From: Deltaproteobacteria bacterium
Lineage (GTDB): Bacteria > Myxococcota > Myxococcia > Myxococcales > SZAS-1
Length of the DNA stretch: 64,000 bases
NCBI GenBank assembly: GCA_018266075.1
Contig: JAFEBB010000011.1
Coordinates: 62,001-126,000, forward strand
Direction of reading: 5' to 3'
Position 1 is the stretch's first letter, and each line of letters starts with the position of its first letter. A program made the position numbers and the translations under genes. This document shows positions 1-23,736 of the stretch, piece by piece. A model generated the notes under the pieces. It saw only the letters and a program-made list of their open reading frames with translations, was not told where the DNA came from and did not search any database.

Positions 1-1033
1 GCCGGCGATCCTTCGAGTCGTAGGTGTGCGTGAACGCGAGCGCCTCGGCGAGCTCTTCGTGCGCCTTGGGATCGTTGGGCGACTGGCGGACCTTCTTGTC
101 GAGCGCGTCCACGAGCGCGGGCTGCTGCTCGGGCTGCAGTCCACCGCGCGGCGGCGTGACAGGACCCGTCGGCATCCGCGGCGTCACCGCGCTGAGCGCC
201 TCGCCGCGCGTGCCCGAGAGCCGCAGCCAGAAGCCCATCGGCCCATCGGCCTGAGCGAGCTTGAGCATCACCCGGTGGGTGCCCTTCTTCAGATTCACGG
301 CCACCGCGTGCTGATCGAACGACGCGGGGTGGTACTGCCTGTCCTCGAGGACCTTCTGTCCGTCGACCCAGATGCGCGTCGCGCCCGAGGCGCCCACGTG
401 CAGCACGGCGCGCACGTCGCGCGAGACGTCGAGATCGGTCACCGCGTAGATCGCCGAGTCGTGCACCGGGCGCACGGCGCTGGAGAGATCCGCGTAGCCG
501 TCCGGGGTGAGCACGTCGAGCCGACGCCAGCCGATCTCGCGCTCCTTGCCCGGGTAGCGCTTGTTGAAGTCGAGCTCGGTCTCTGGCGGGTAGGCCTTGT
601 CGAAGCCGGCCTTGCCCTCGTTGTCGAAGCCGCCGATGAGCATGAAGTGGGTGAAGAGCCCCAGCCGCTGCATCGCGTCCGCGGCGCGGTTGGGCAGGCC
701 GCGGGCGCGGAGGATGTCGGCCTGGTAGAAGCGCGCGAGCGCCGCGATCTCCGGCAGCGAGCGCCGCGAGTTCGCCACCGACGAGAACGCGTCCTCCAGC
801 GGCTCCAGCTCGTCGAGGTCGGCCTTCAAATTGTAGAGCCGGTGCAGCGGCACGAGCGCGGAGGCGCTGTTGGCCTGCTGCCACGCCTGGTGCGCGAGCG
901 GCGCCACGCGGTCGGCCGACGGATTCGACGGCGCTTCGGCCTTCTCGGCGCGCGCGACCTTCGCGTTCAGCAGCGCGGCGAAGGCGAGCGAGGCAGCGAG
1001 GGCTCGGGTGGCATTTCGGGCAGGGACGTGCAT
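1..1033 (-). CDS. Secreted protein with TPR-like N-terminus, possibly DUF3857/transglutaminase family (3' end outside window)
   Basis: Open from an ATG at 1033 to the left edge, giving 344 visible codons and no stop. The N-terminus is basic then hydrophobic (about residues 8-24, ending AARA-like), consistent with a signal peptide. A helical region follows, then a segment with the words GGFDNEG, YPPE and YPGKE-IGWRR, which I associate with the N-terminal part of myxobacterial DUF3857-type secreted proteins; after it comes a beta-rich ligand-binding-like stretch (VGASGATRIWVDGQ) and a second helical repeat region. The family name is tentative; secretion is better supported. The gene lies 83 bases downstream of the next minus-strand gene, so the two could be co-transcribed. 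Confidence 0.75.
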   Translation of the reverse strand, partial: MHVPARNATRALAASLAFAALLNAKVARAEKAEAPSNPSADRVAPLAHQAWQQANSASALVPLHRLYNLKADLDELEPLEDAFSSVANSRRSLPEIAALARFYQADILRARGLPNRAADAMQRLGLFTHFMLIGGFDNEGKAGFDKAYPPETELDFNKRYPGKEREIGWRRLDVLTPDGYADLSSAVRPVHDSAIYAVTDLDVSRDVRAVLHVGASGATRIWVDGQKVLEDRQYHPASFDQHAVAVNLKKGTHRVMLKLAQADGPMGFWLRLSGTRGEALSAVTPRMPTGPVTPPRGGLQPEQQPALVDALDKKVRQSPNDPKAHEELAEALAFTHTYDSKDRR

Positions 1034-20916: not shown

Positions 20917-21444
20917 CTGGTTGCTGCCCTCGCCCTCGCGTTGCTGCTCGGCGCCAAGCCGCAGCCCACGCCGGCGCTCGAGGCGCTGCTCGGCAAGACG
21001 CACGAGCAGCTCTCGCAAAAGCTGTGCAGCGATCCCCAGGGGCTGACGAAGCTCCGCACCGATCCGAATAACGGCCATCCGGTCGAGCTCTGGCGCTGCC
21101 ACGGCTTCCGCAGCGCTCTCGCGCCCGACAGCGCGCTCACCCTCTACTTCGAAGATGGCAAGGTCGCGCTGGCGATGGCCACCGCCGGCGCCAAGGATGC
21201 GGCGGAGGCCACGTCGAGCTTCGACGCCGCGGCCGCCAAGCTGCGCAAGCTCGCCTGCCAGAAGCGCGAGGATCGCGAGCTCTCGGTGGCGGTGCAGGAC
21301 TGCAAGGACGGGCCGAAGTTCGAGGTCCTCACCCACGTGACCATGCCCGACCCGGATCAACCCGACGGCCACCGGCACGGGCTGGTGCTCCAGGCCACGA
21401 CGGATCCCGGGACAGCGCAGCGGCTGGGCAAGCTCTTCCACTGA
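20917..21444 (+). CDS. Small exported protein of unknown function (probable CTG start)
   Basis: 175 residues if translation begins at the CTG at 20917. That codon has GGAGG at 20907-20911, correctly spaced, and gives a proper signal-like start, LVAALALALLLGAKPQPTPA. The first TTG in frame (20941) lacks a ribosome site and removes most of the hydrophobic segment; no ATG or GTG exists upstream in frame. The mature part has four Cys (KLCSDP, WRCHGF, LACQK, VQDCKD) that could form two disulfides. No family recognised. It is followed after 69 bases by the probable selenoprotein gene on the same strand. Confidence 0.7.
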   Translation: MVAALALALLLGAKPQPTPALEALLGKTHEQLSQKLCSDPQGLTKLRTDPNNGHPVELWRCHGFRSALAPDSALTLYFEDGKVALAMATAGAKDAAEATSSFDAAAAKLRKLACQKREDRELSVAVQDCKDGPKFEVLTHVTMPDPDQPDGHRHGLVLQATTDPGTAQRLGKLFH

Positions 21445-21513: not shown

Positions 21514-22104
21514 ATGCGTGTCGCGCTGAGAGCGTCGATTGCCATCGTGGCGATGCTGGCCATGGGCTGTCTCACGCACCTGCCGCCGCCGCGGAGCCAC
21601 TGTCAGCTCAAGGTGCACTGGACGCACGACTTCGACGCCGCGCAGGCGCGCGCGCAAGCAGAGGACAAGCCCATCCTCGCGGTGCTCGCGGCCGGCCAGC
21701 TCGACGGCCCGTGTTGAGTGGGCGCCTCGCTGCTCCGGGTCGGAGCGCTCTCGGATGAGAAGGTGCAGGCGCTGGTGAACGACGAGGTCGTGCCGGTGTG
21801 GATCGACGTGCGCGAGTCGCCGCTTCCGCGCTTGCCGGTGTGGCCCAAGGTGCTGGTGAACGCCAAGCTCGGGCCAGACAACCGCATCGCGGATCTGTAC
21901 AGCCAGGGCTTCTTCCTGCGCACGGTGGTGCTCACGCCGGACGGGAAGACACTGTTGAATCCGCAAGCAGATACTGTTGAAGGCAGCGTGGCCACGTCGT
22001 CGCAGAAGGGCTACTACGCGTACGCGCAGACCAAGCCGCAAGACTTCATCAACATGATCACCGGCGCGCTGGCGAGGTTCCACGCGTTGGCGCAGACGCC
22101 CTAG
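21514..22104 (+). CDS. Probable selenocysteine-containing thioredoxin-fold lipoprotein (in-frame TGA at 21715-21717)
   Basis: 196 residues if TGA at 21715 is read as selenocysteine (Sec68). The ATG at 21514 follows GAGGGGAAGCGG. The lipobox MLAMGC ends at residue 17. The body is thioredoxin-like: KPILAVLAAGQLDGPC-U-VGASLLR sits where thioredoxins carry CxxC, followed by VQALVNDEVVPVWIDV and LRTVVLTPDGKTLLNP. Codon use and similarity continue in the same frame across the TGA. Cys67 and Sec68 are adjacent. The Arg in LRTVV replaces the cis-Pro found in thioredoxins and resembles the Arg of peroxiredoxins, which hints at peroxidase or reductase chemistry (inference). A SECIS-like hairpin lies just after the TGA. 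The alternative is a nonsense-mutated pseudogene; the intact downstream frame and hairpin argue against it. Confidence 0.8.
21715..21748 (+). promoter_or_regulatory. bSECIS-like hairpin for UGA recoding
   Basis: After the TGA, GC-T-GCTCCG pairs with CGGAGC-GC around the loop GGT (loop 21738-21740, 21 bases after the TGA). The single unpaired T at 21731 in the 5' arm and the GGT loop mirror the bulged U and GGU of the E. coli fdhF element that binds SelB. The distance falls in the usual bacterial range. Confidence 0.7.
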
Positions 22105-22110
22105 AAATAC

Positions 22111-22148
22111 GAAAGCCCGCCGCCGCGAAACCGCGGGGCGGGCCTTCC
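22111..22148. terminator. Bidirectional terminator-like hairpin between selenoprotein gene and slipin gene
   Basis: GCCCGCC (22115-22121) pairs with GGCGGGC (22137-22143), with an inner CCGCG/CGCGG stem and an AAAC loop. The minus-strand side is followed by TTTCGTATTTC, so it fits best as the end of the slipin transcript; the plus side has only CCTTCC. Both genes converge here. Confidence 0.6.
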
Positions 22149-23663: not shown

Positions 23664-23736
23664 AGCTGATCAAGGGATTCGAACCCTCAACAGCCGGATC
23701 TCAAGTCCGGTGCTCTACCCGTTGAGCTAGATCGGC
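23664..23736 (-). tRNA. tRNA with anticodon UGA but no long variable arm (Ser-like anticodon, atypical)
   Basis: A 73-nt cloverleaf: acceptor GCCGATC/GATCAGC with one C-A mismatch, D arm TAGCTCAACGGGTAGAGCA, anticodon arm CCGGA-CTTGAGA-TCCGG, five-base variable loop CTGTT, T arm GAGGG-TTCGAAT-CCCTT, discriminator T, no encoded CCA. The anticodon TGA would read the Ser codon UCA, but bacterial tRNA-Ser needs a long variable arm, which is missing. Position 37 is G rather than the usual A for U-starting codons. It may be a pseudo-tRNA or a tRNA with non-Ser charging. The Ser label is only from the anticodon. Confidence 0.7.

Follow-up and report, generated by a model that had tools for sequence, protein, structure and literature searches.

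The locus at 21514–22104 raises a simple question: is a TGA codon that interrupts an otherwise open reading frame read as selenocysteine (Sec) and, if so, what might such a protein do? The frame lies on the forward strand of the window (the whole 64,000-nucleotide stretch of DNA that was analysed), and coordinates given below refer to that strand unless stated otherwise. With TGA translated as Sec the frame extends from an ATG start to a TAG stop and specifies 196 residues, with a single internal TGA at codon 68 (21715–21717). This agrees with the earlier note, which described a frame broken only by a TGA directly after a Cys codon: beyond the TGA there are 128 codons with no further break in frame. 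The account developed here – an envelope lipoprotein of thioredoxin fold, in which Sec68 is inserted by the genome's own SelA, SelB, SelC and SelD under the direction of a downstream hairpin, and which acts as an oxidoreductase with its selenol resolved by Cys67 – is, taken as a whole, one to which we give somewhat better than even odds.

The gene, its homologues and the TGA codon

The first 19 residues (21514–21570) form a lipoprotein signal peptide ending in a lipobox, MLAMGC, recognized by inspection as a hydrophobic stretch followed by xGC. Cys19 (codon 21568–21570) is invariant in five homologues and, on the strength of signal peptide and lipobox, the product is predicted to be an envelope lipoprotein. 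The residue after Cys19 is Leu, Ile or Phe, not Asp; according to the rule established in E. coli, a residue other than Asp at position +2 favors the outer membrane.

Homologues were sought in 60 related genomes. Three full-length homologues (44–49% identity) were found, each with one internal TGA: in all three it is the same codon that is TGA, and a Cys codon precedes it. They come from Myxococcaceae isolate SSF41 (G048, JAIBBQ010000019.1), Myxococcales isolate SJ252 (G052, JADLDB010000147.1) and a genome that is 69% complete (G019, DAIDIT010000046.1). The four genomes with a TGA belong to different genera and the protein is conserved on both sides of the codon. A search of genome contigs with the single window protein gave no match; a search of the same kind with the alignment gave four loci, including a fifth homologue (PNAM01000118.1, isolate palsa_1104, 38–40% identity). 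The open reading frame of this fifth homologue is uninterrupted and reads EGAICLGG, with TGC (Cys) at the Sec codon and ATC (Ile) immediately before it. The site is thus GPCU, GLCU or GRCU in the TGA forms and AIC in the Cys homologue, and Cys67 (TGT, 21712–21714), which adjoins the Sec, is present in four of four TGA homologues. The earlier note had proposed that codon 68 be compared among homologues: with TGA in three relatives of the window gene and TGC in the fifth homologue – that is, TGA in four of five – the outcome is a classic Sec/Cys exchange.

When the alignment was used to search the order (145 genomes) and the phylum (195 genomes), it added a C-terminal fragment only. This fragment (L036, G138:C389) is the C-terminal half of a further homologue, located near a contig end and preceded by DNA without homology: either the assembly breaks here or the gene itself is broken. 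No homologue was found in viral contigs.

The sequence downstream of the TGA is itself informative. Taken alone, it matches the TGA homologues at 44–48% identity (E 1e-33 to 1e-40), while the best result for its other sense frames among these homologues is about 4e-6. Homology so far above that of the other sense frames means that the coding reading is not due to chance. It is very improbable that the TGA is an ordinary stop, with a 67-residue peptide before it and, after it, either a separate ORF starting from the GTG at 21718 or the remains of a broken gene. A GTG does indeed stand directly after the TGA; however, in two of the four TGA homologues that codon is ATC, the TGA and both halves of the gene are kept in four independently sequenced genomes, and the ORF of the Cys homologue runs on without a break.

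The earlier note had also proposed a search for selA, selB, selC and selD, and all are present over cut-off in the window's genome. The tRNA-Sec gene, selC, scores 71.8 bits and has the anticodon TCA; SelB (300 bits, full length), SelA (558 bits) and SelD (385 bits) each exceed their curated cut-offs. In every other host genome, the one with the Cys homologue among them, there is a tRNA-Sec over cut-off and a selB match, the match in the 69% complete genome (G019) being partial and under cut-off. Given that the genome of the Cys homologue has both selB and tRNA-Sec, loss of the Sec system does not account for the Cys form. Furthermore, TGA also serves as the terminating stop in three of the other homologous genes and so is not globally reassigned. 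Although in-frame TGA codons are known to be read through in other bacteria, decoding as some other amino acid (Trp, for example), whether by a suppressor or a near-cognate tRNA, is scarcely credible for a codon that the homologous genes themselves use as an ordinary stop, that has Cys as its natural substitute, and that occurs in a genome with complete Sec machinery. Reading codon 68 as selenocysteine is by far the best interpretation of these sequences and is almost certainly correct.

In the window's genome, a search for the formate dehydrogenase alpha subunit gave nothing over cut-off, and nothing with a TGA in the matched parts. Because no Sec formate dehydrogenase was found, it is probable that other selenoproteins keep the Sec system in use. 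The genome (G000, in which the window is C11:62001–126000) combines full Sec machinery with a selenoproteome of other make-up than formate dehydrogenase.

Genomic context names no partner: the neighborhoods of the five loci have nothing in common. Neighbors in the window encode a metallo-beta-lactamase fold protein, an SPFH protein, a prolyl oligopeptidase and a protein kinase, and these are not shared between genomes. Just upstream of the selenoprotein gene is a hypothetical gene (20941–21444, forward strand) with no Pfam or NCBIfam match, and just after the stop codon a GC-rich inverted repeat with a short run of T behind it (22114–22147) reads as terminator-like. Across the window Rfam gave a single match over cut-off, a tRNA gene on the reverse strand (23664–23736).

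The hairpin downstream of the TGA

A bSECIS-like hairpin occupies positions 21729–21748, with a bulged T at 21731, a GGT loop at 21738–21740 and a predicted energy of –11.6 kcal/mol. The hairpin, its GGT loop and its bulged T are as the earlier note had described them, but the distance of 21 bases after the TGA applies to the apical loop, which lies at nucleotides 21–23: the hairpin itself starts 12 nt past the TGA.

The published bSECIS model, against which the earlier note had suggested a check, specifies a loop of 3–9 nt, a stem of 4–16 bp, a G in the first two loop bases, a spacing of 16–37 nt and an MFE of –7.5 or below (PMC13188914). Hairpins conforming to this model are present in all four TGA genes, with energies from –9.6 to –15.2 kcal/mol and a loop that starts 18–20 nt after the TGA. 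No conforming hairpin was found at the corresponding place in the Cys homologue (PNAM01000118.1).

Compared with synonymous recoding, and with placement left free, the energy of the hairpin is not significant in this GC-rich gene (p 0.23), and the weight is therefore carried by its position and conservation. Placement gave p values of 0.015–0.065 per gene, or 5e-4 combined, for genes that are related and with a loop window (18–21) chosen after the hairpins had been viewed. Conservation was assessed at four- or six-fold degenerate sites in codons of conserved residues: synonymous identity is 5/5 over codons +2 to +11 after the TGA as against 6/36 elsewhere (Fisher p = 6e-4). When the hairpin is laid across the four TGA genes 81% of cells pair, compared with 41–59% in slid versions. 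Compensatory (double) base changes were not seen in the hairpin among these four genes, and a search of Rfam at a permissive threshold gave no SECIS family match at the locus. We favor the view that the hairpin just downstream of the TGA is a functional RNA signal. Together, the Sec machinery, the four TGA homologues and one TGC homologue, and this hairpin uphold the central proposal of the earlier note: a selenocysteine-containing, thioredoxin-fold lipoprotein with an adjacent Cys–Sec pair.

Fold, active site and putative chemistry

The AlphaFold model (mean pLDDT 84.7) places a helix (residues 69–76) directly after Sec68 and Arg136 on a strand spanning residues 135–140. The best structural match of the predicted model is a DsbD-related domain from Bacteroides (3f9u, Z 13.7, 122 residues, 2.8 A), followed by ERp18 (1sen, Z 13.3), AGR3 (Z 12.6) and AGR2 (Z 11.9). 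As modeled, the protein has a thioredoxin fold of the DsbD-gamma/ERp18/AGR type and not that of a peroxiredoxin. A joint alignment with DsbD, DUF255, VPGC and UGGC relatives matches Sec68 to the first (nucleophilic) Cys of CxxC, which puts the TGA at the thioredoxin redox site, where the earlier note had placed it. Position +3 is Ala or Gly, such that the usual resolving Cys is absent, and Cys67 is the sole thiol near Sec68. Leu135 occupies the cis-Pro column and Arg136 follows it (21916–21921), an assignment made from the joint sequence alignment only; these two residues begin the segment LRTVV (residues 135–139), and Arg136 is invariant in five of five homologues. A peroxiredoxin-like Arg in place of the cis-Pro, as the earlier note had it, was rejected given the one-position shift in the joint alignment and the DsbD-gamma/ERp18/AGR fold.

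With Sec at the place of the nucleophile, no thiol at +3 and Cys67 in every Sec form, it is reasonable to suppose that Cys67 resolves or protects the Sec by way of a selenenylsulfide. The most likely function is therefore that of an envelope selenol oxidoreductase that would resolve through a Cys67–Sec68 selenenylsulfide. In such a scheme the UGA at codon 68 would be decoded as Sec by the SelA, SelB, SelC and SelD of the genome, directed by the downstream hairpin; Sec68 would then attack an oxidized periplasmic substrate (a disulfide, a sulfenic acid or a small oxidant); Cys67 would resolve the intermediate as the neighboring Cys67–Sec68 selenenylsulfide; and an envelope dithiol donor, perhaps a DsbD-like protein, would re-reduce the pair. 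For selenenylsulfide chemistry between neighboring Cys and Sec residues, the best-known example so far is mammalian thioredoxin reductase, in its C-terminal tail. The replacement of Cys67 by Ile in the Cys homologue, a single counter-example, means that a catalytic role for this residue is not universal. More tentative – a possibility to which we would give rather less than even odds – is the fuller proposal of a new myxobacterial envelope family, lipid-anchored, in which CxxC has given way to a neighboring Cys–Sec pair whose cycle passes through a strained selenenylsulfide ring.

Two other activities deserve consideration. The protein could be a one-Sec thiol peroxidase, with Arg136 lowering the pKa of the selenol and the selenenic acid being resolved by Cys67 or by an external thiol. 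The invariance of Arg136 and the absence of a resolving Cys at +3 accord with this, but we consider it unlikely: in peroxiredoxins the Arg occupies the cis-Pro position itself (PMC2757866), from which Arg136 is one residue off, the fold matches are DsbD-gamma, ERp18 and AGR proteins, not peroxiredoxins, and the site, which reads LDGPCUVGA, contains neither the peroxiredoxin PxxxTxxC/U motif nor, in particular, the PxxxTxxU form of selenoperoxiredoxins.

Still more doubtful is the idea that the Cys67–Sec68 pair of this selenoprotein binds or reduces an envelope metal or metalloid (Hg, Cu or As) instead of taking part in thiol/disulfide exchange. The cis-Pro position is occupied by Leu, and a study cited in PMC2757866 is reported there to show that cis-Pro keeps thioredoxin-type thiols from binding metal; moreover, the names of the CU-motif selenoproteins SaoL, HgcA and MbdU refer to metal or mercury functions (PMC13188914). 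Against this, the corresponding site of the Cys homologue (Ile-Cys) has one thiol only and would make a poor metal site, and no metal-resistance genes were seen beside the gene. An envelope selenol oxidoreductase is thus the reading that we prefer.

The locus points to a use of selenium for redox chemistry in the cell envelope of myxobacteria, and does so in a genome for which no Sec formate dehydrogenase was found. It also provides a natural Sec/Cys pair – Cys-Sec in four homologues and Ile-Cys in one – with which to test why a neighboring Cys accompanies Sec.

Relation to known families

The 21514–22104 protein stays below the cut-off of every NCBIfam and Pfam model. Pfam matches are sub-threshold only: Thioredox_DsbH/DUF255 (PF03190) at 21.9 bits and Thioredoxin_7 (PF13899) at 18.8 (gathering cut-off 27). 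The NCBIfam model NF041383 scores 18.5 bits over residues 33–97, against a cut-off of 275 on a model of 287 positions, and matches the best homologue with an E of 3.1e-5; the NCBIfam Trx7/PDZ model gives a weak match only. A 2026 catalogue of prokaryotic selenoproteins lists 119 families and subfamilies, among which CU motifs occur in other families only and there is no Thioredoxin_7-type lipoprotein (PMC13188914). In view of this absence the family appears to be undescribed, both in that catalogue and in the curated library, although it is of a well-known kind. Its recognition brings in a further selenoprotein family, one whose genes will be divided or cut short at the TGA by standard annotation.

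A second thioredoxin-like protein with an in-frame TGA was observed in three genomes of one genus (G041, G038 and G013). Its motif is FSAAP[AT]UGGCARLD (UxxC), the loci are L041:1519–1917 (forward strand), L040 (minus strand) and L044 (forward strand), and its similarity is to the end of TsoB and DsbD, with scores far below the cut-offs for either.

Of the known systems, NF041383 (VPGUxxT type 2, OS_HP5) is similar in having a Thioredoxin_7-type domain with Sec or Cys at the first Cys of CxxC, and the VPGC Cys of its relatives aligns with Sec68. In contrast, the window protein, a lipoprotein of one domain, has CU and not GU, lacks the VPGU motif and carries an insertion ahead of the site. The DsbD gamma domain, DsbH, DUF255 and Thioredoxin_7 share the fold and are the nearest Pfam matches, but have CxxC or CHWC where the window protein has C-U-x-G-A/G. 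The single-domain PDI-like proteins ERp18/TXNDC12 and AGR2/AGR3 are very close in fold (Z 11.7–13.3), and AGR2 and AGR3 are likewise without a second Cys; these are, however, proteins of the eukaryotic ER, with neither Sec nor a neighboring Cys. Finally, an adjacent Cys–Sec pair is also found in SaoB (CUxxT), SaoL, SaoC, HgcA, MbdU and KCU-star (PMC13188914 Table 1): these share the pair with the window protein, but by domain assignment they belong to other families.
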